A model generated the notes under the pieces. It was given only the letters and a program-made list of their open reading frames with translations, made no database searches and was not told the DNA's origin. A DNA stretch of 64,000 bases from Phenylobacterium sp. CCH9-H3 (lineage in GTDB: Bacteria; Pseudomonadota; Alphaproteobacteria; Caulobacterales; Caulobacteraceae): contig NZ_LSJI01000118.1 of the NCBI RefSeq assembly GCF_001557235.1, positions 5,450 to 69,449 on the forward strand, read 5' to 3'. Each line of letters opens with the position of its first letter. Position 1 is the first letter of the stretch. Below, in pieces: positions 1 through 13,517 of the stretch. The position numbers and the translations under genes were made by a program.

Positions 1-2
1 TA

Positions 3-164
3 AGGAGCTTTATCGCCGAATATCCCGGCGGCGGCGCCTTCCTGGCGATGGTGACGGACCCCGAGTACGGCGAACTGGTCAAGCACCGGCAGGCGGCGGT
101 GGAGGATTCGCGCCTGATCTGCATGGCCCCGGTGGCGGACCCTGGGGAGGGGTTCGGGGAGTAG
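3..164 (+). CDS. DUF1330 family protein, C-terminal part
   Basis: The frame is open from the window edge to a TAG stop, giving the last 53 residues of a protein whose start lies outside the window. The segment around FLAMVTDPEY and the following KHRQAAVEDSRLI resembles the end of DUF1330 proteins, small ferredoxin-like-fold proteins of unknown activity. It converges on the dioxygenase gene with only 8 bases between the stops. The family call rests on a short segment and is moderate. Confidence 0.55.
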   Translation, partial: RSFIAEYPGGGAFLAMVTDPEYGELVKHRQAAVEDSRLICMAPVADPGEGFGE

Positions 165-172
165 CTGAGCCG

Positions 173-1195
173 CTACTCCGCCGCGTCCAGCCGGCTGATC
201 ACCCGCTTGTCGTTCCAGTGGGTGTCGATGTTGCGCCGGAAGTAGGGCGGCCGATCGGACAGCACCTCGGTCTCCAGCCACAGCCGCTTCAGGTGGCGGA
301 TCTTTCCCGCCGAGCGGTCGTCCTGGTATTCGGTGCGGCCGTGCAGGACGTGGAAGTTGTTGACGAACTGCATGTCGCCGGGCTCGAAGCCCATGATCAC
401 CGAATAGCGGCCGCTCTCGGCCGCGTCCTCGATCCAGGTCAGGGCTTCCCGGGCCTTGTCGGTCAGACGGGGAGCGTCGGGGATGCGCTGGGAGGCGCGG
501 ATGTATTGCGGGATCGCCCGTACGAACAGGCGGTCGTTCCATTCAGTGAACACCGGCACCGTGTACCAGCCCTTGGTCGCCGGCTTCTGCTCGCCGCGGA
601 AATCGTAGGGCTGGGGCAGATACATTTCCGCCGCCAGGTCCGGCCGCTCCCGCACCAAGTCGTTGTGCAGGGCGACCGAGTTGGCCACGCCCGAGAGGCC
701 GCCGGAGACGCCATTGGCCAAGCACATCAGACCCACGAGGTCCGCGCCGTCGCAGTGGTAGCCGAGCTTGATGCCGCCCAGCTCGTTGCCGCGGGCGGTG
801 GGGTCGTCCAGGGCCTTGCCCTGGTCGGTGACGTCGCCCAACAGGTGGCCGTACTTGTTCTGCGCCCAGGGTTTGCCCAGGTGCATGCCGATGCCCCAGT
901 AGATCAGGCACATCTCGTCGTTGGAGTAGTGGTCGCGTTCAACGCCGCGGATGCGCACGAAGCCGCGGCCGTTGATCAGCTCGTTCTCGATCCGCTTCAG
1001 CCGAGCCGCCAGGGTCGGCAGGGGAAAGTCCGCCGCGCCGATATCCAGCAGATCGCTGGACTTGGCGCCCGCATGCTCCACAGCCGCGGCGATCTCGTCG
1101 CACTCGGCCTGGGTCAGCATCTCCGTCCACGCGGTCGGATCGGCGACATCCTCGGCGCGCCATTCGCAATGGGTTTCCAGAAGCCTGGGGGTCAT
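173..1195 (-). CDS. TauD/TfdA-type Fe(II)/2-oxoglutarate dioxygenase
   Basis: About 340 residues, a normal length for the TauD/TfdA superfamily, which hydroxylates small organic substrates using Fe(II), 2-oxoglutarate and O2. The iron-binding HxD appears in GYHCDGADLVG near the middle, and the distal histidine in FHVLHGRTEYQD towards the C-terminus. Two ATGs lie six bases apart. The GGAGGG ribosome site directly abuts the first and is correctly spaced for the second, so the second was chosen. It follows the D-aminoacylase-like gene after a 13-base gap, so the two are probably co-transcribed. The substrate cannot be told from sequence. Confidence 0.85.
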   Translation of the reverse strand: MTPRLLETHCEWRAEDVADPTAWTEMLTQAECDEIAAAVEHAGAKSSDLLDIGAADFPLPTLAARLKRIENELINGRGFVRIRGVERDHYSNDEMCLIYWGIGMHLGKPWAQNKYGHLLGDVTDQGKALDDPTARGNELGGIKLGYHCDGADLVGLMCLANGVSGGLSGVANSVALHNDLVRERPDLAAEMYLPQPYDFRGEQKPATKGWYTVPVFTEWNDRLFVRAIPQYIRASQRIPDAPRLTDKAREALTWIEDAAESGRYSVIMGFEPGDMQFVNNFHVLHGRTEYQDDRSAGKIRHLKRLWLETEVLSDRPPYFRRNIDTHWNDKRVISRLDAAE

Positions 1196-1208
1196 GGTCA
1201 TCCCTCCC

Positions 1209-2939
1209 CTATTCCGCCGCCATTGCCGACGGCGCAGCCTGGGCGCCGCGTAGCAGCCGGCCCGGTAGCGCGCCGGTGGGCTCGCCGTTGCGATAGGTGA
1301 CGTCGCCGGCGACTATGGTCACCACATAGCCGTCGGCCCGCTGGATCAGCCGCCGCCCACCCGCCGGCAGATCGTAGGCGACCTCCGGCGCGCGAAGGCG
1401 CAGATGGTCGTAATCGATGACGTTGAGGTCGGCGCGCAGCCCGACCGCGATCCGGCCGCGGTCGAACAGCCCCACCGATTCGGCGGTGTCACGGCACTGC
1501 ATGCGGATCACCGCCTCCAGGGGCAGCTTGGGGCCCCGGGTGCGGTCGCGGGTCCAGTGGGTGAGCAGGCTGGTTGGGAAGCTGCCGTCGCAGATCATGC
1601 CCACATGGGCGCCGCCGTCGCTGAGGCCCGGCACCGTGTTGGGATCGGTGAGCATCTCATAGGCCGCGTCGAGGGAGCCGTCGGCGTAGTTGAGGAAGGG
1701 CACATAGAGCATACCCTTGCCGTCCTGCGACAGCATGTGGTCGAGGGCGACCGCCTCGTTACTGAGGCCGCGCGCGCGGGCCTGGAAGGCCACCGTGGAT
1801 TCCTCGGTCGGCTCGTAATCGGGCTCGGCGGCCATCAGATGCATCTGGTCCCAGGCCTGGACCATGCCGCGGGCGCCGTCCGTGGGATTTTCCGACAACA
1901 GCTGCGCGCGCACCGCCGGATTGCGCAGGCGAGCCAGCTTTTCGGCGAGGGGCAGCTTGGCCATCTCGCGATAGGTGGGATGGAAGCTGAATGGGGTCAT
2001 AGTCAGCTCCAGGCCGAACAGCACCCCGACGGGCCGCGCGGCCACCTGAGCCTTCATCGGCAGGCCGGCGGCCACCGCGTCGGCGAGGGCGGCCAGCAGC
2101 ACCTTGTAGGCCCGGGGCCCGCGCGGGCTCTGCACCAGGGTGAAGGCCAACGGTCGGCCGGAGGCCTCCACCAGCCGGCGCATCATGGCGAACTCGGCCT
2201 CGGGATCGTTGAAGTCGGACACGAACTGCAGCGTGCCGCGGCCGGCGGCCTTCAGCCCCATCGCGATGCCCATCAGTTCGTCTTCGCCCGCGGTGAGCGT
2301 CGGAGTCGGCTGACCGTCGCTGGTGCGGTGGTTGAGTGTGCGGGAGGTGGAAAAGCCCATGGCCCCGACCTCGGCCGCGCGGCGGGCGATGGCGGCCATG
2401 GCGGCGATGTCGGCTGGGGTTGCGGCCTCGCGATTGGCGCCGCGCTCGCCCATCACATTCACCCGCACCGCGGCGTGGGGCAACTGGGCGCCGATGTCGA
2501 TGTCGAAGCGCCGCCGGCTGAGCGCGTCCAGGTAGTCGGGGAAACTCTCCCAGTTCCAGGGCAGGCCCTGGCTGAGCACCGGGAAGGGGATGTCCTCCAC
2601 CCCCTCCATCAAGCGCACCAGCCGGTCGTGGTCCTCGGGTTTGCAGGGGGCGAAGCCCACCCCGCAATTGCCCATGATCACGCTGGTCACCCCGTGCCAG
2701 GACGAGGGCTGCATGCGCTCGTCCCAGGTGGCCTGGCCGTCATAGTGGGTATGGACGTCGACGAAGCCGGGGCTGACCAGCTTGCCGCGGGCTTCGATCT
2801 CCTCGCGGCCCCGGCCGTTCACCTGGCCGACAGCGACGATGCGGCCGTCCTTGATCCCGACATCGGCCTCACGGCCCGTCGCGCCCGTGCCGTCCACCAG
2901 ATGGCCACCGCGCACGACCAGATCGTAAGCCTGTTCCAT
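1209..2939 (-). CDS. N-acyl-D-amino-acid deacylase family amidohydrolase
   Basis: The 576-residue protein has the layout of D-aminoacylase-type amidohydrolases, which remove acyl groups from N-acyl-D-amino acids or related amides with a metal centre. Visible marks are the early metal-binding DVHTHYDGQ, the GNCGVGFAP block, [11 protein letters not shown] and the late SDGGAHVGM motif. The frame is open 18 codons further upstream, but the ATG used here has a well-placed AAGGAAA ribosome site. It is the first gene of a probable two-gene unit with the TauD-type dioxygenase. Many such proteins are annotated without known substrate, so only the family is claimed. Confidence 0.88.
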
Positions 2940-3179
2940 GACCCGCGTTTCCTTATCGTTGTTTAGTCGATATTTCCCATATGGCCGGCGCATCCTGACA
3001 TCTTGGTGGACGATAACCCCGGCCCGCGGCGGAGATCAATACCGGCGATCCCGTGATCGCGCTGTTCGCCGCCTGATCGGCGATGTGTTCGCCATTTCGA
3101 TGGGAATTCCCTGCTCTTGGCCGACGTCTGGACGCACGTCTCCTGTCGATGGTCCACCAGGCCGGTAAGGGTATCCCCC

Positions 3180-3718
3180 TCAACATCGTGGCAGCGGCGA
3201 CGGACGCAACGACGCGATGGCGTCGAGGATCTGCTGGAACAAGTCGTGCGAGACCATGACCTCGGCCATTTGGAACGTGATCGACCGCCCGTGCCGGACG
3301 ACCTTCGCGCCGATCTTCACCAGCCGGTCGCGCAATGTGGTCATCGACCAATGGCTGACCTCATTGGGAAACGTCAGTGTGCGGAGGAAGTTGGCGAGGT
3401 TGTAGGCCAGGGCATGCAGTCGCAGCCGCACGGCGTTGGCGGCGAAGCGGCGGCAGGACAGGCGGGTCCAGACGATCGCGTTCTTTCCCTCCTTGATGTG
3501 CTGCTCCGCCGTACCCCGCTGATTGTAGAACAGCGTCACCCGTTCCGGCGGCCGGCTTATGTTGGTCACAATGAACCCGACGCGCGGAAACAACTCGCCG
3601 GGGTGCCACTCGACCTTCGCTACCACGCGGCGGGCCTTGTTCCACGAGGCCGCCTGATAGCTGAAGCTGGCGTAATAACGGCGGACATCACGCCAGAGCC
3701 CGGTCGCCGTTGCGACAT
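3180..3718 (-). pseudogene. IS1380-family transposase, C-terminal remnant
   Basis: The frame encodes the last part of a DDE transposase of the IS1380 family. Typical blocks are VAKVEWHPGELFPRVGFIV, FYNQRGTAEQHIKEGKNA and the following region with RFAANAVRLRLHALAYN. Matching sequence continues upstream of the first possible start, through FSYQAASWNKARRV, until an in-frame stop near 3717. The N-terminal half, with most of the catalytic domain, is therefore gone. Full-length members have roughly 450 residues, so this copy cannot be active. It marks the left border of the AT-richer block. I could not find both terminal inverted repeats. Confidence 0.85.
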
Positions 3719-3743
3719 CTGATCATGGTGTCAGCTTGCGCGG

Positions 3744-3767
3744 GTCTTCCCGGAAGGCCGGGAAGAC
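3744..3767. repeat. Perfect 10-bp inverted repeat beside the transposase remnant
   Basis: GTCTTCCCGG and its exact complement are separated by four bases. The hairpin lies between the transposase remnant and the GMC oxidoreductase stop. It may be a terminator stem for the oxidoreductase gene, without a U-tract, or part of the decayed IS. The sequence alone does not decide. Confidence 0.4.
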
Positions 3768-3876
3768 GTCAAGCGAGATGGGAAAGAGTAACTCCAGGGT
3801 TGAGGGGTCCGACGGCCCGCCCCTCCCGTCTCATCAATAGGTCAGCCAAGCCTCAGACACATCTCGGCTTACGGAG

Positions 3877-5634
3877 TTACGGCCCAGGATTGGAACGGTC
3901 ACCAACGTCGAGGACAAGCGTGTATCGTGTATCTGTCTTCATCGTTCTTAATATCTCTCTTGCCGCCATCGCCTTCCCGAGGATCATGTCCGAAGCCTTT
4001 TCAGCGATCATCATCGTCGGTGCGTTGGTGTTGCCTGAAACGAGGCGCGGCATGACCGAGGCGTCTACGACGCGCAGCGCCTCAACGCCTCGCACCCGGA
4101 GCTGCGAATCTACCACAGCCATAGGCCCGCGGCCCATCATGCAGGTGCCGACCGGGTGGTAGATGGTGGTGCCGCCCATGCGAGCATAAGTCAGCAACAT
4201 TTCGTCAGTCTCGAATCCTAGCCCGGGGTTCATCTCGTGGTCGATGTAGCGAGCGAGAGCCGGTTGGCTCGCTATCTTGCGTCCCCACTTAAGGCCCGCA
4301 ATCGCGACCTCTTGGTCGAGCGGATCGGCCAAATAGTTGGGCGCGATAGCTGGGTAAACGCTGGAGTCGGCCGACTTGATGCGGATCGTGCCACGGCTTT
4401 CAGGGCGCAGTTGGCAGGGAGCGATGGTGAGGCCTGGCTCACCTTCAAGTTCCATCTTCTGCTGGGTGGCGAGCTTTTCTGCGTCCATGGTGGCCGGCAA
4501 GATATGGAACTGGATGTCAGGTGTAGAGAGATCGGGCCGCGATTTGACGAAGGCGGCGATATGCGCGGCCGACAGCGTGAGAAGCCCCCGCCTCAAGAAG
4601 GCGTACTTCAGGGCCTCCCCCACGAGTCGCCGACCTTTAGACATCTCATTGACGGAGAGGACCCCCTTCTTCAACCGGTAACGCAGGCCGACCACGTAGT
4701 GATCCTGCAGGTTTTCGCCTACGCCCGGCACGTCCGCCACCACGGGAATTCCGTGCTCTTGCAGAAGGGCCGCAGGACCGACGCCAGAAAGCTGTAGGAG
4801 TTGGGGCGAATTGACCGCGCCGCCGGCCAGGATCACCTCGGCATTGGCTGTCGCCGTCCGTCGCATACCGTTCTGGGTGAACTCGACGCCGACCGCGCGC
4901 TTCTCCCGGAAGAGGACCCGGGTGGCGAGGGAACCGGTTTCAACGACAAGGTTCGATCGCTTCAGAACCGGATGTAGATATGCGACCGCGGCGGACCAGC
5001 GCCGGCCGTTCTTCATTGTCACCTGGAACCAAGTCGCCCCTTCCTGCTGAGCGGCGTTCAGATCCTCTATACGCGGCAGGCCCGCCTGCACACATGCATC
5101 TATGACGGCGTCCGACACAGGATGGCCGTCGCGCATGTCGGAGACGTTTAGGGGGCCACCCGTGGCGTTCCAATCGTCCGCTCCGCGCTCCTGATGCTGC
5201 GAACGCAGAAAATACGGCTTCACATCATCATAGGACCAGCCTTCGCATCCGAGCTGCCGCCAGCCATCATAATCCTCCCGCTGGCCGCGAATGTAGAGCA
5301 TCGCGTTGATTGAGGATGAGCCGCCCAACACCTTGCCACGCGGCCAGGCATGCTGACGCCCGCCCGAGCCGGGATCGGGTTCGGTTTGGTAGAGCCAGTT
5401 GACCTTCGGATCCTTTAACGTCTGCGAGTAACCCACAGGGACATGGATCATCACATTCGATAAGAATTGTGAGGGGTTATGCATCGGCCGGTCGTCGCCG
5501 CCTGCTTCCAATAGAAGCACGCGCGTCTTGCCGTCAGCGGTAAGACGATTGGCGAGGACGCATCCTGCCGATCCCGCACCCACGATAATGTAGTCCACCT
5601 GCAGGCTAATGGCACGAACTCCAACGCTTACCAA
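3877..5634 (-). CDS. GMC family FAD-dependent oxidoreductase (choline-dehydrogenase-like)
   Basis: A GMC flavoprotein that oxidises an alcohol to an aldehyde or ketone. The N-terminal FAD-binding fold starts with DYIIVGAGSAGCVLANRL. The GMC signature WPRGKVLGGSSSINAM follows, and the C-terminal domain has the catalytic-type YHPVGTCMMG and the closing NTNAPTMMIAEKASDMI. The usual family C-terminus is at that point, but the frame runs about 30 more residues into DNA next to the IS remnant, so the tail may be a junction artefact. No ATG is present. The frame opens at a TTG, and a GTG 12 codons later is an alternative; neither has a good ribosome site. The neighbours suggest a role in breakdown of an alicyclic or terpenoid-like compound (inference). 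Confidence 0.85.
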   Translation of the reverse strand: MVSVGVRAISLQVDYIIVGAGSAGCVLANRLTADGKTRVLLLEAGGDDRPMHNPSQFLSNVMIHVPVGYSQTLKDPKVNWLYQTEPDPGSGGRQHAWPRGKVLGGSSSINAMLYIRGQREDYDGWRQLGCEGWSYDDVKPYFLRSQHQERGADDWNATGGPLNVSDMRDGHPVSDAVIDACVQAGLPRIEDLNAAQQEGATWFQVTMKNGRRWSAAVAYLHPVLKRSNLVVETGSLATRVLFREKRAVGVEFTQNGMRRTATANAEVILAGGAVNSPQLLQLSGVGPAALLQEHGIPVVADVPGVGENLQDHYVVGLRYRLKKGVLSVNEMSKGRRLVGEALKYAFLRRGLLTLSAAHIAAFVKSRPDLSTPDIQFHILPATMDAEKLATQQKMELEGEPGLTIAPCQLRPESRGTIRIKSADSSVYPAIAPNYLADPLDQEVAIAGLKWGRKIASQPALARYIDHEMNPGLGFETDEMLLTYARMGGTTIYHPVGTCMMGRGPMAVVDSQLRVRGVEALRVVDASVMPRLVSGNTNAPTMMIAEKASDMILGKAMAAREILRTMKTDTRYTLVLDVGDRSNPGP

Positions 5635-5944
5635 ATATCAATATTGCACGACCATAGTCGATAAGCCTTGAGCCGAGATGTACGAACAATAACGCCATCG
5701 TTTTAGAGGAAATATTGCTCTGGAATACCTGGCGGATATGGCCCTTCCCTTCTCGGAAAGCTACAGTATTGAAGAGTCCACCGCTGATGGTTGTGCGCTC
5801 GGGCAGCGAACGCCGAGTCCTAAAGGGATTTTCTTTCACTATCAGCATTCGTGTCATTCGGTCGCCCGCCTCTTTTCGTCTTAGATCGCCGTTGGGAACC
5901 AGCGGACCTGAATCGGTGGTCCGCCTTGCCTGATTGGGAACGCC
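5635..5944. other. Intergenic stretch within the acquired block
   Basis: About 310 bases between the SDR gene and the GMC oxidoreductase gene, AT-richer than the flanking genome. On the minus strand it contains an 83-codon open frame at 5606-5857, which has a plausible GGCGGG ribosome site but no recognisable domain and overlaps the GMC start. I see no convincing gene. It more probably holds the leader and promoter of the oxidoreductase gene or a decayed reading frame. Confidence 0.4.
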
Positions 5945-6844
5945 TCAACCGCCAATCGCATCCGGCTGTCTCGACTTGCTGATGAGGTCCTTGACGATTG
6001 GGCCGAGTTCGTTCGGGTCGAAACGCCGCTTCGGATTTATGGCCGGCCCGCGATGCCAGCGCTCGAAGACTGTCAGCCGCCCCCCCGTGGATTCGAAGAC
6101 CTGGCCCGTCACGTCCTTCGACTCGCTGCTCCCGAGCCAGACGACGATCGGTGCGATATTGGCAGGATCACGGGGGTTCCACTCACCCGCAGGCACCTCG
6201 ACGCCGTAACCAAGATCTTCCGTCATCCGGGTAAGCGCCCCCGGCGAGATCGCGTTCACCGTGACCCCGTAGCGCGCGAGCTCCATCGCCGCGGTAATCG
6301 TAAAGGCGGCGATGCCCGCCTTGGCCGCGCCATAGTTGCATTGCCCCTGATTGCCCAGTAACCCGGAAACAGAAGTAGTATTGATGATCCGAGCGTCGAC
6401 TGGATTGCCTTCCTTGGCGCGCGCCCGCCAATAATCAGCGGCGTGGCGAGCTGGACAAAAAGTGCCGCGAAGATGAACCTTGATGACCGCATCCCATTCG
6501 TCGATCGCCATGTTGGCCAGCATGCGATCGCGCAAAATGCCAGCGTTGCTCACGAGAACATCGAGGCTGCCAAAAGTCGCGGTCGCCTGATCGATCATCC
6601 GTTTGGCGCCCTCCCAATCTGATACGTCGTCGCCATTGGCGACCGCCTCTCCTCCCATCGCCCTGATTTCCGCCACCACGGCTTCAGCGGGTTCGCTCGA
6701 TCTGCCCTCCCCCGTCCGCTCGCTACCGAGATCATTCACCACAATCCTGGCGCCTTGGCGCGCAAACTCTAGGCAGTGCTCCCGCCCTATACCCCTCGCC
6801 CCACCCGTCACAATGACGACGCGCCCCTCGCACAATCCAGCCAT
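5945..6844 (-). CDS. Short-chain dehydrogenase, MFE-2 / 3-hydroxyacyl-CoA dehydrogenase-like
   Basis: A 299-residue SDR. The nucleotide-binding TGGARGIG is at residues 13-20, SNAG near 99-102, and the catalytic triad is S158, Y171 and K175. The segment VVNDLGSERTGEGRSS and the long insertion before AVVAEIRAMGGEAVAN match the subgroup related to the dehydrogenase domain of peroxisomal multifunctional enzyme 2, which oxidises 3-hydroxyacyl-CoA esters. The C-terminus has about 30 residues more than a classical SDR. It lies 24 bases after the acyl-CoA ligase gene and probably shares its transcript. A CoA-ester substrate is inferred from family and neighbours. Confidence 0.85.
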   Translation of the reverse strand: MAGLCEGRVVIVTGGARGIGREHCLEFARQGARIVVNDLGSERTGEGRSSEPAEAVVAEIRAMGGEAVANGDDVSDWEGAKRMIDQATATFGSLDVLVSNAGILRDRMLANMAIDEWDAVIKVHLRGTFCPARHAADYWRARAKEGNPVDARIINTTSVSGLLGNQGQCNYGAAKAGIAAFTITAAMELARYGVTVNAISPGALTRMTEDLGYGVEVPAGEWNPRDPANIAPIVVWLGSSESKDVTGQVFESTGGRLTVFERWHRGPAINPKRRFDPNELGPIVKDLISKSRQPDAIGG

Positions 6845-6868
6845 TCCCAGATCCTTGTTTCGTTGGAT

Positions 6869-8434
6869 TTAGATCTTCTTCTCGCCCTGCCAGTATCTAT
6901 CGCGGACCGTTCGTCGCACGATCTTGCCGGTCTCAAGCCGCGGAAGATCATCGGCGAAATCGACGGTGCGCGGGCGTTTGTAAGTGGCGAGGCGCGCCGC
7001 CGCGAAGACCAGTATTTCCTGGGCAAGCGCCTCGTTGGGTTCGTATCCTTGGTTGAGTTGGACCACGGCCTTGACTTCTTCGCCCCAGTCCGGGTTAGGC
7101 ACGCCCACCGTCGCCACATCCTTGACCGCCGGGTGTTGGAGGACCTCCTGATCGATTTCCGATGGATAGATATTCACTCCGCCAGAGATGATTACCTCGG
7201 CGCTGCGACCGGTCAGAAAGAGAAATCCATCCTCGTCCACGTAGCCCAGATCGCCCATCGTGTAGAACGCTCCACGGTAGACGCCTGCAGTCTTCTCCGG
7301 AGCTTTGAAGTACTCGAACCTCCCGGTCGCAGGCGCCTCGAAATAGACGGTTCCAACATCGCCCTGCGGCAATTCCTTACCATTCTCATCCTGAATCTGC
7401 ATGACGACCCCCGCAGTGGGCCTGCCTACAGAGCCAGGTTTGTTCAGCCACTCGGCCGGCTCGATGAACACCCCGCCGCCTTCGGTTGCGCCATAGTATT
7501 CGAAAACAACGGGCCCTAGCCATTCGAGCGCCGCCTGCTTCACATGCACCGGACATGGAGCCGCGCCGTGAAGCACCCAGCGCAGTGATGAAACATCATA
7601 TTTCGAGCGGATGTCGGGGGTGAGGTGGAGGAGCCGATTGAGCATCGTCGGCACGATGTGGGTATGGGTGATGCGATGCTGATCGACTAAACGGAGCATT
7701 GCCTCCGCATCCCATTTGTCCATCAGTAACGTGTGAACCCCCGCGGAGAGCGGGAGCAGGAGATTCAGGCTCAGAGGTGCGGCGTGATAGAGCGGTCCGG
7801 TCACCACCGAAACGTCGTCTGCGCCATTGAACTGCGCCGTCTCGACCATTTTTGCAAAAAGAGAGGAAGCTGGTGGCGCGCTGCCCCGATAGACTCCCTT
7901 AGGATGCCCCGTCGTGCCCGAAGTGTAGAGCATCTGACTGCCCAGAAGGGGATTTGGAACATTCTCGCCGGATTCGCGCGCCATCAACGTGTCGTATGAC
8001 GCGAAACCCTTGATCGGCCCGCCCACCGCGAGCTTGACGTGCAGACCAGACGTTGCGGAGGCCGCTTGGATCGAGGCTGCCGCGAGCCGTGCGTCAGCGA
8101 CGAAGGCCTTTGCCTCGCAGTTCTCGACGATATACGCGACTTCGTCAGCAGTAAGGTGCCAGTTGACCGGCGTTAGTCGGAACCCGGCGCGTTGGCAGGC
8201 GATGACCGTTTCGACGAATTCGGGTCGGTTAGCGCAGAGAAGCGCCACCCCATCGCCAGGCACCAAGCCGGCGCCCCGCAGCAACTCGGCGAGACGATTG
8301 GCCTGAGCGTTCAACTCCGAAAATGTGCGGTCGCCTCTTTCGGACGAAATCGCAAGGCGGTCTGGTGCGCGCGCGGCGTGCCAGGCGACAACCATGCCTT
8401 TGGCCGCAGCGTCCTCGAACGACATCCTAAGCAT
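6869..8434 (-). CDS. AMP-dependent acyl-CoA ligase (FadD-like)
   Basis: A 521-residue member of the ANL adenylating superfamily, which activates a carboxylic acid to its CoA thioester using ATP. The P-loop-like YTSGTTGHPKGV, the EYYGATEGGG core motif, the hinge-region YTMGDLGYVDEDGFLFLTGR and the C-terminal LPRLETGKIVRR with its catalytic lysine are all present. It is a clear paralog of the ligase at 39182-40765. Both share the NWHLTADE segment and overall layout, which suggests a similar alicyclic or aromatic side-chain substrate class. Two ATGs lie three codons apart at the start, and neither has a strong ribosome site. Confidence 0.9.
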   Translation of the reverse strand: MLRMSFEDAAAKGMVVAWHAARAPDRLAISSERGDRTFSELNAQANRLAELLRGAGLVPGDGVALLCANRPEFVETVIACQRAGFRLTPVNWHLTADEVAYIVENCEAKAFVADARLAAASIQAASATSGLHVKLAVGGPIKGFASYDTLMARESGENVPNPLLGSQMLYTSGTTGHPKGVYRGSAPPASSLFAKMVETAQFNGADDVSVVTGPLYHAAPLSLNLLLPLSAGVHTLLMDKWDAEAMLRLVDQHRITHTHIVPTMLNRLLHLTPDIRSKYDVSSLRWVLHGAAPCPVHVKQAALEWLGPVVFEYYGATEGGGVFIEPAEWLNKPGSVGRPTAGVVMQIQDENGKELPQGDVGTVYFEAPATGRFEYFKAPEKTAGVYRGAFYTMGDLGYVDEDGFLFLTGRSAEVIISGGVNIYPSEIDQEVLQHPAVKDVATVGVPNPDWGEEVKAVVQLNQGYEPNEALAQEILVFAAARLATYKRPRTVDFADDLPRLETGKIVRRTVRDRYWQGEKKI

Positions 8435-8548
8435 GGGTCACACCGTTTAGCCTCAAGCCGAGCAGCGGCTTATTGGATTGGGGAGCGATCTGAGATGGTC
8501 GCGCCATAACCGATCGAGGCTGAAGGCGCTTTCGATTCGGCGAGGCGG

Positions 8549-8941
8549 TCATAGAGGGGTGAACATCGGAATCGCGCAGCCGTCTTCGGCCTCGACAAAA
8601 TGAACACGGACCCTTTGCCCGATACAAAGCGCCCTGGCATCGCAGTCAACGATGTTGGTCAGCATCGTAACGCCCTCATTCAGAGTCACGTAGGCGATGA
8701 TGTATGGTGGGTCCGCCTGGCGTGTGACGGAGAAACTATAGATTTGACCGAGGCCCGATGTTTCCTTGAGTTCGGTATCAGTTGAGTAGCAAATTGGGCA
8801 TATCGAGCGTGGGTAGTAATGGTTTTCGCCGCAGGCATTGCAAGACCCGACCATGAGCCTGCCTTGTCCCGCCGCCTCCCAGAATAACCTATTCTCGACG
8901 TTCGTGACGACGCGGTGCTTGATTTTGTTCAGATTGCTCAT
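8549..8941 (-). CDS. DUF35 / OB-fold protein with zinc ribbon, thiolase partner
   Basis: A 130-residue protein with a rubredoxin-like zinc ribbon (C34, C37, C48, C51) followed by an OB-fold, the typical DUF35 arrangement. DUF35 proteins bind acyl-CoA and pair with thiolase-like proteins. In steroid degradation the DUF35 domain of ChsH2 supports the aldolase Ltp2. Its start overlaps the stop of the upstream thiolase-like gene by four bases (ATGA), which implies coupled translation and fixed stoichiometry. Function as the partner of that protein is a strong inference from context. Confidence 0.88.
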   Translation of the reverse strand: MSNLNKIKHRVVTNVENRLFWEAAGQGRLMVGSCNACGENHYYPRSICPICYSTDTELKETSGLGQIYSFSVTRQADPPYIIAYVTLNEGVTMLTNIVDCDARALCIGQRVRVHFVEAEDGCAIPMFTPL

Positions 8942-10113
8942 GCGTCTTGGTGTCCGAGAATAAGGGTCGCGCTTCCCATGCGGGAGCCAAGAAGCCCTCC
9001 GGTGCCGTGCGCCAGGGCGATGTCACAGTCGGGCACCTGGACGCGAGGATGGGCCACGCCCCGTACCTGACGAACCGCTTCGATGACTTTTGTCATGCCG
9101 CCACGGTTGCCCGGGTGGTTGTTGCATAGCCCACCACCGTCGGTGTTGAACGGCAAGCGCCCAACTCCGGAAATGAGGTTGCCGTCGGAGACGAACCGCC
9201 CCCCCGCTCCTTTTTCGCAGAATCCGAGATCCTCAATGGTCTCGAGCACCGTGATCGTGAACGAGTCGTAGATTGATGCGTATTTGATGTCCTTCGCCGT
9301 CACGCCCGCCTCTTCGAAGGCCTTCGGCCCCGACCAGCGCGCGCCAGAAAACGTCAGATCGACCCGTCCCGCTGAGAGATGCTTGGGCGCCTCGCCAGCG
9401 CCCAGAACCTTGACCAGAGGGCGTCGCAACCCTTTGGCTACGGCTTCGCTGACGACGACCAAGCCTCCCCCGCCGTCGGTAATCACGCAGCAATCGAGCC
9501 GATGAAGCGGATCCGCGATCATCGGAGAGGCCAAGACTTCATCGACCGTCACTATGTTTCGCAGCCTGGCGTTCTCATTATACTGAGCATGATGGGAGGC
9601 TGCGACCTTGATCCAGGCCAGCTGCTCGGACGTTGTTCCGAACTCGTGCATGTGGCGCTTGGCGCACATCGCATACATGTTGGCCACGTTTGCGCCGAAC
9701 GGCGCCTCGAACGGAAAATCCGGCGCTTCGGTGTTGTGAAACCTGCCCGACTTGCCCTCTTTTGCGTCCGCTAAGGGGCGGCCCGCTAGCGTGATGAGCG
9801 CGATGTTGCAGTGACCGGCCGCGATCGCCTGCGCCGCATGATTGACATGGACCAGATAGGAGGACCCGCCGGTTTCGGTGCTATCCATGTGCCGTACGTT
9901 CTGCAGGCCGAGGTACTCGATCATGTTGAGCGGACCCAGGCCAGGCGCATCGCCGGCGCAGAAGTACGCGTCCACATCACCCATGCTCAGCCCGGCGTCA
10001 GCGAGCGCTGCCTTCGCAATTTCGGCATGAAGTTGCGCGAGCGTCTTGTTCGCCGCCCCCCTGCAGGGATGCTCATAGATTCCTGCGACAAAGGCTTTGC
10101 CTCGAATGCTCAC
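8938..10113 (-). CDS. Thiolase-like protein (Ltp2-type aldolase or lyase candidate)
   Basis: A 391-residue thiolase-fold protein of the SCP-2 / lipid-transfer thiolase group. Where true thiolases carry the acylated cysteine, this protein reads DSTETGGSSY around residues 77-86, without cysteine. Other marks are ASIYDSFTITVLETIEDLGFC and the glycine-rich FNTDGGGLCNNHPGNRGGM. These features fit the group of steroid side-chain retro-aldolases such as Ltp2 rather than a 3-ketoacyl-CoA thiolase. The start is a GTG preceded by an AGGGGCGGGA ribosome site. It leads the block's operon and is coupled to the DUF35 gene. The exact substrate is unknown. Confidence 0.85.
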   Translation of the reverse strand: MSIRGKAFVAGIYEHPCRGAANKTLAQLHAEIAKAALADAGLSMGDVDAYFCAGDAPGLGPLNMIEYLGLQNVRHMDSTETGGSSYLVHVNHAAQAIAAGHCNIALITLAGRPLADAKEGKSGRFHNTEAPDFPFEAPFGANVANMYAMCAKRHMHEFGTTSEQLAWIKVAASHHAQYNENARLRNIVTVDEVLASPMIADPLHRLDCCVITDGGGGLVVVSEAVAKGLRRPLVKVLGAGEAPKHLSAGRVDLTFSGARWSGPKAFEEAGVTAKDIKYASIYDSFTITVLETIEDLGFCEKGAGGRFVSDGNLISGVGRLPFNTDGGGLCNNHPGNRGGMTKVIEAVRQVRGVAHPRVQVPDCDIALAHGTGGLLGSRMGSATLILGHQDA

Positions 10114-10263
10114 GTCCCGCCCCTAACTCAGTCGGCCCCTGAGGCCACGTCACGGCGAAGGGACTGCCTTCGACCCACGATTTTCGGTTCTTGGCTAACC
10201 CATCGCTAGGCTGACCGGGTTCCATTAACGGCGAATCTGGCCGCCCGTCGGGGCGATCCTTAT

Positions 10264-10299
10264 CTCCCATATAGGAGGAAGACAAAAACACATATATGT
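10264..10299 (-). promoter_or_regulatory. Paired palindromes upstream of the thiolase-like operon
   Basis: Two AT-rich inverted repeats lie close together: CTCC-N6-GGAG at 10264-10277 and the perfect ACATATATGT at 10290-10299. They sit about 150-190 bases upstream of the GTG of the thiolase-like gene, where a transcriptional regulator could bind. No regulator gene is in the block. This is a candidate operator region only. Confidence 0.3.
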
Positions 10300-10508
10300 C
10301 AGACTAGGTCAAGGCTTCGGACTGCGACCCGAATCGCTCTGGTGGTCGCCAAGGCGTAGGCGCCGCCCCGATCACCGTGGGCCGCGCGGGCATGGGAGAG
10401 CCGCGCCGGCGGACCACGCGCAGTAGGGGGTCGCTGCTGACGGGCAGCATCAGGGGTAGGGCAGGGCGGCTTGCGGGCGGGCTTCTTGGCGGTGACGGCT
10501 TCGGACAT
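10299..10508 (-). pseudogene. atpD: Truncated start of atpD (ATP synthase beta subunit)
   Basis: Thirteen bases after the atpG stop, in the position of atpD, an ATG opens with MSEAVTAKKPARKP, which looks like the alanine/lysine-rich N-terminal extension of caulobacterial F1 beta subunits. After that the reading shows no beta-subunit sequence, and it stops at 69 codons. The Walker A region and the rest of the roughly 500-residue protein are absent, as is atpC. A GAGAG ribosome site precedes the ATG. The break falls at or near the edge of the acquired block. A second, complete atpD must exist elsewhere, or this is a genome rearrangement or assembly join. Confidence 0.6.
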
Positions 10509-10521
10509 GTCTGGGTTCTCT

Positions 10522-11394
10522 CTAGATCGCTTCGGCGCCGGAGATGATCTCGATCAGCTCCTTGGTGATCTGCGCCTGGCGGGCTCGGTTCATCTGCAGG
10601 GTCAGGCTGGCGATCATGTCGCCGGCGTTGCGGGTGGCGTTGTCCATCGCCGTCATCTGGGCGGCGAAGAAACCAGCCTGGTTCTCCAGCATGGCGGAGA
10701 AGATCTGGGTCGTGATGTTGCGCGGCAGCAGCTCGGCCAGGATCGTCTCCTCGTCGGGCTCGTACTCATACGAGGCGCCCTTGAGGTCGATCGGCGTCGA
10801 TCCAGCCGCCACCTCGGCGGGGATCAGCTGCTTGGCGGTCGGGGTCTGGGTCACCACCGACTGGAACTTCGAGAAGAACAGCGTGACCACGTCGATCTCG
10901 CCGGCGGCGAACATCGACTGGATCTTGGCCGACACCTCTTCGGCCACGGCGAGCGAGGGGTTGCCCCCGACTTCGAAGGTGTCGACCAGACGCTGGGCGT
11001 GCAGGCGGCGAAGCTGGTCGCGGGCCTTGCGGCCCACGGTCATGATCTTCACGTCCTTGCCCTCGGCCAGCAGGGCGTCGATGCGGACGCGCGCGGCGCG
11101 GACGATGGACGAGTTGAACCCGCCCGCCAGGCCGCGGTCCGACGTGGCGATCACCACCAGGTGACGCTGGCTCGCGCCTGTGCCGACCAGCAGCTTCGGC
11201 GCGCCGTCGCCCGACACGCCCGCGGCCAGATTGGCGATCACCGCCGCCATGCGCTCGGCATAGGGGCGGGAATCCTGGGCGGCGTTCTGCGCGCGGCGCA
11301 GCTTCGCCGCCGCCACCATCTGCATCGCCTTCGTGATCTTCTGGGTGGATTTCACCGCAGAGATCCGATTGCGCATTTCCTTGACGCTGGCCAT
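10522..11394 (-). CDS. atpG: ATP synthase F1 gamma subunit
   Basis: The 290-residue protein begins [20 protein letters not shown], the N-terminal helix that forms the rotor shaft inside the catalytic hexamer. It ends with the conserved helix that includes [21 protein letters not shown]. Length and both helices match the gamma subunit. It is third in the atpH-atpA-atpG run, 30 bases after atpA. The next gene in the usual order, atpD, is only present as a short remnant. Confidence 0.97.

Positions 11395-11424: not shown

Positions 11425-13517
<2,093 letters not shown>

Follow-up and report, generated by a model that had tools for sequence, protein, structure and literature searches.

A Phenylobacterium contig that leaves the ATP synthase operon at codon 15 of atpD is very probably a chimera of two bacteria

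A truncated ATP synthase operon

The window, by which we mean the whole 64-kb stretch of DNA analysed, contains complete atpH, atpA and atpG genes followed, on the same strand, by the first codons of atpD. The features on which the analysis is based are the following.

1-159, strand opposite to that of the amidohydrolase and TauD genes: end of a DUF1330-like gene (Pfam E 0.024, below cut-off)
8-2969, minus strand: left segment as aligned, with nucleotide identities of 88% to G385:C93 and 76% to the best long match from G001's genus
173-1201, minus strand: TauD dioxygenase (Pfam)
1209-2993, minus strand: amidohydrolase (Pfam)
3180-3660, minus strand: C-terminal remnant of an IS1380-family (IS1247-like) transposase (Pfam PF13701; 73% nucleotide identity to IS1247)
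3689-10324, minus strand: AT-richer catabolic block of 6.6 kb with five genes (Pfam), 96.7% nucleotide identity to G009:C20 and 95% to G037:C17 over 5922-10448
3877-5634, minus strand: GMC oxidoreductase (Pfam)
5945-6844, minus strand: SDR (Pfam)
6869-8434, minus strand: acyl-CoA ligase (Pfam)
8549-8941, minus strand: OB-fold ChsH2-like protein (Pfam)
8938-10113, minus strand: thiolase-like protein (Pfam)
10324-10463, minus strand: scrap of an ISL3-family transposase gene (by DNA similarity to annotated ISL3 transposases), with an adjoining short piece that G037 has in inverted orientation (G037 copy 89-94%)
10464-10482, minus strand: join point, a 19-bp exact word common to G032 atpD and, inverted, to the G037 DNA beside the block
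10464-10508, minus strand: first 15 codons of atpD (MSEAVTAKKPARKPP), identical to G032 atpD up to 10464
10522-11394, minus strand: intact atpG (gamma subunit; full ORF, Pfam PF00231, 99% amino acid identity to G032)
11425-12957, minus strand: intact atpA (alpha subunit; ORF, 94% amino acid identity over the part present in L001)
12963-13517, minus strand: intact atpH (delta subunit; ORF, matches in relatives)
10464-64000, no strand assigned: right segment, resembling Phenylobacterium chromosome and by blastn almost collinear with G032:C7 (76-140 kb)

As an earlier note on this DNA had claimed, atpH, atpA and atpG are intact and atpD is reduced to its first codons. The three intact genes are full open frames on the minus strand, and the atpD match ends at base 10464, after 15 codons. 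The fused frame (10299-10508, minus strand) starts with MSEAVTAKKPARKPP at 10508 and does begin like AtpD, its first 15 residues being the same as the N-terminus of the intact, 511-residue AtpD of G032 (start MSEAVTAKKPARKPPAAKAAAPK). Identity between the window and G032 DNA extends across the atpD start to base 10464, where the two sequences diverge. L001, the nearest locus by AtpG (90% amino acid identity), also encodes an intact AtpD (start MSEAATAKKPAARKPAAP); it is from the same genus as G032, which by AtpG is nearer still (99%). A tblastn search of the 64-kb window with AtpD returned the paralogue atpA, the first atpD codons and chance-level matches only, with no second AtpD-like stretch, and no 16-mer of G032 atpD occurs on either strand of positions 1-10464. 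The window shares with the Caulobacteraceae F1 operon, atpHAGDC, the gene order and sequence over atpH-atpA-atpG and the first 15 atpD codons, but its atpD is cut and, among the 10 ORFs scanned in Pfam (173-11394), there is no atpC nor any other ATP synthase subunit besides atpG. The fused 69-residue frame, used as a protein query, has no matches at E 0.01. With the N-terminal 60 residues of G032 AtpD as query, four proteins were examined from the best 120 of 460, and none has the window's AtpD start followed by the break; one of the proteins from this search, P0001, is a full-length AtpD with the start MSEAVTAKKPARKS.

Sequences flanking the join

To the right of the join, the best blastn pieces from G032:C7 have 81.7-97.5% nucleotide identity per 1-kb bin from 10464 to ~62.7 kb, with small gaps; 62.7-63.9 kb is unaligned to G032:C7. 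This alignment contains no further signs of rearrangement right of 10464. Collinearity with G032 stops exactly at 10464, and G032 runs on through an intact atpD and further genes; at E 1e-5, nothing in the window matches the G032 stretch fetched from past this point. As judged from this alignment, the right-hand 53.5 kb would come from the chromosome of a near relative of G032 within Phenylobacterium, whose atpD is expected to continue intact.

The left segment (8-2969) has a different nearest relative. Among the matches listed from 390 family genomes, for each of which one or two candidate places were scored, the top match is G385, at 88% nucleotide identity over the whole length; G384, G386 and G113 come next at 77-78%. 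G385 lies outside the 101-genome genus of G001, within which the best long match is G022 (76%) and shorter pieces match G058 and G103 (77%) and G085 (79% over 737 bp). G032 matches only the amidohydrolase, at 74% and in a different neighbourhood. The two sides of the join therefore have their nearest relatives in different taxa, G032 on the right and G385 on the left, and the order is reversed for the right-flank protein PBP1A, with identities of 99% for G032, 79% for G022 and 68% for G385. A cluster of 56 JGI sequences includes a TauD 99% identical to that of the window; its longest contig, at 1216 bp, is too short to include neighbours. GC3 of the left genes is 0.90-0.91, equal to that of the right flank, and the tetranucleotide distance of the left 3 kb, 0.208, exceeds that of 16 of 17 right-hand pieces and is within their range of 0.145-0.210. 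In two Caulobacterales loci, L013 (1-1158) and L014 (1-1103), an amidohydrolase gene is located ~7 kb upstream of atpH, on the opposite side of the atp operon from the arrangement in the window, and is adjoined by DNA that matches the window's DUF1330-like end. An atp gene was found beside the amidohydrolase in none of seven further genomes (G001, G002, G004, G006, G032, G037 and G046).

Between the left segment and the break is the catabolic block. That an AT-richer block adjoins the break is borne out by a per-kb GC content of 57-62% at 3-10 kb versus 62-74% right of 11 kb, and the IS remnant reported in the same region is confirmed as an IS1380-family remnant both by Pfam PF13701 and by the nucleotide match to IS1247. 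Block GC3 is 0.70-0.73 (four genes) versus 0.88-0.93 (seven right-flank genes), and tetranucleotide distances of 0.34-0.37 also set the block strongly apart from the flank. AtpG identity to the window is only 74% in G009 and 90% in G037. Because the block is 96.7% identical in G009 while AtpG is only 74% identical, these identities point to a recent traveller, at least between the source of the window and G009, and to recent horizontal spread. The block has no close match in G385 or in five more genomes, where the highest-scoring hit has 74% identity over 1.6 kb, and either parent may have carried it. Plasmid origin was considered and rejected: none of 923 matching plasmid records covers 80% of the block, and identities are 60-90%. 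Cytochrome P450-like genes, read from translations, are present near the block in L103 and L113. The ISL3 scrap has DNA matches in 16 plasmid records, with an ISL3 transposase annotation in 7 of the 16 rows; its 43-residue reading has no Pfam match. The scrap is not an element end because the match falls within the annotated transposase coding sequence of a related element.

The join and the atpG-atpD pair in relatives

When the 64 kb of G032 were compared on both strands with the 374 bp of G037 DNA beside the block, with these relatives standing in for the parents, the 19-bp word was the longest in common, the next having 14 bp. In G032 atpD it covers the end of codon 9 and the codons that follow, up to codon 15. 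Just outside the block in G037, an inverted stretch of 34 bp matches the window across the break at 94%. A 34-bp piece next to the ISL3 scrap, L113 9533-9575 versus window 10449-10482, is inverted between G037 and the window, and comparison of the two suggests that a small inversion may have occurred at this piece in one or the other. Parts of the G037 DNA beside the block recur in 28 of the 390 family genomes, and its full length occurs in G037 alone; it has no plasmid match, and a 32-residue piece of it has no Pfam match. We read this DNA as derived from a mobile element or transposase, and it is presumably IS6-like. Viral contigs contain no exact copy of the junction, and with up to 4 substitutions allowed the only DNA to match it among 162 loci is that of G037 itself. 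Chimera formation during assembly or amplification is expected to place a join on the best shared word on offer; in a cell, illegitimate recombination could do the same. The smallest k of common assemblers is 21, and the 19-bp word, as judged from relatives, is slightly under this, which counts against a chimera formed in assembly.

The earlier note had also proposed a comparison with the atp locus of relatives. Of 80 fetched loci, 79 encode AtpD downstream of atpG, within 400 bp in 75 and at 471-1622 bp in four, and in the 80th, L043, the contig ends within atpD. In the genus of G001 (101 genomes), AtpD is found in 92 genomes at E 1e-150 and AtpG in 83 at E 1e-40, with AtpD only in 10 genomes and AtpG only in one. 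Where both are found (n = 82), they are on the same contig and 14-248 bp apart in 79 genomes, strand not being considered, and in the remaining three (G063, G072 and G084) AtpD is partial and on a different contig from AtpG. None of the 92 genomes has a second full AtpD at E 1e-150, each having one match apart from G070, which has two fragments. Partial AtpD matches are present in 21 of the 92 draft genomes, 12 of them beginning within 5 bases of the contig's first base, and metagenome assemblies seem to break often within atpD. These partial matches end at residues 145-427, in the AtpD core, and not at codon 15. Two loci that rank among those of Caulobacteraceae by atpG carry other labels, L005 (labelled Ancalomicrobiaceae, 81% to the window's atpG) and L018 (Rhizobium, 69%), and are possibly misbinned or mislabelled.

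Origin of the join

We consider it very probable, at about 0.86, that the window is a chimeric contig of two bacteria and not a broken ATP synthase operon. At base 10464 the sequence would pass, by way of the 19-bp word, from Phenylobacterium atpD into a piece of another Caulobacteraceae genome; this foreign piece would be the mobile catabolic block, with ISL3 and IS1380 transposase scraps on its sides and, beyond it, the amidohydrolase-TauD-DUF1330 segment that resembles a different genus. A chimera is favoured because the nearest relatives of the flanks differ in genus and the join is on the longest shared word, and because AtpD follows atpG in 79 of 80 loci and no remainder of atpD is present left of the join. 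Not in its favour are a left GC3 equal to that of the right flank, a left tetranucleotide distance inside the right-hand range, though at its upper edge, and the position of the join at codon 15, outside the atpD core where partial matches in draft genomes end; the left segment could also be a horizontally acquired island, a further point against a chimera. We infer that the join was formed in assembly or library preparation rather than in a cell, and the organism's own atpD-atpC would then be intact. The earlier note had offered two readings, of which a misjoined contig is well supported by the flanks of different genera and the shared word, and relocation or copying of the rest of the operon finds no positive support.

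If the rearrangement were instead real, illegitimate recombination at the 19-bp word would have joined an IS-flanked island to codon 15 of atpD, and atpD-atpC would now be elsewhere under another promoter. A 19-bp perfect match is as usable in a cell as in an assembler, the block is mobile (97% nucleotide identity in G009 despite only 74% for AtpG), IS scraps are present on both of its sides and the left GC3 fits the host. Nevertheless, a split atpG-atpD pair occurs in none of the 80 loci, the pair is adjacent in 79 of the 82 genus genomes (the other three, with a partial AtpD elsewhere in the draft, decide nothing either way), the likeness of the left segment is to another genus and the 64-kb window contains no intact atpD, and we regard such an event as unlikely. 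Unlikely, too, is a living Phenylobacterium in which a mobile catabolic island has cut atpD and the beta and epsilon subunits are now made from another site, a recent natural split of F1; were it real, such a split would offer a rare experiment of nature on whether F1 subunits need one transcript.

A normal flank with complete atpH, A and G genes would also be expected if the window held a decaying second copy of atpHAG and the atpD start, with an intact atpHAGDC elsewhere, and in L013 and L014 the amidohydrolase precedes the atp operon, an arrangement that a tandem duplication needs. This is very improbable given one AtpD match per genome at E 1e-150 in the 92 genus genomes (two fragments in G070) and a right flank that, over 53 kb, is the normal atp neighbourhood of G032. 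A tandem duplication is unsupported, there being no atp gene beside the amidohydrolase in the seven other genomes. Transposase-derived DNA does start at the break, as a simple transposon insertion into atpD would predict, but the rest of atpD is absent from the window beyond the block, the ISL3 piece is transposase gene interior with no element end at the junction, and there is no repeat of the atpD start of at least 10 bp at 2941-3720; this explanation is barely credible. A simple IS insertion was rejected, the 64-kb window having no second atpD half. The likeness to IS-borne operon disruption is in the transposase scraps that flank the foreign block, whereas the window has neither the second half of the target gene nor a complete IS.

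A chimeric contig, the reading that we prefer, has a counterpart in a published study (PMC7299287) that describes a chimeric contig of related species in a metagenome assembly. The window has in common with such chimeras two related taxa in one contig, a shared word and adjoining mobile DNA, and differs in that its shared word, as known from relatives, is 19 bp. As an artefact, the window would be a warning that two genomes meeting at a short word beside mobile DNA can mimic a broken essential operon, and the genes called in the left 10 kb should not be assigned to the right-hand organism.
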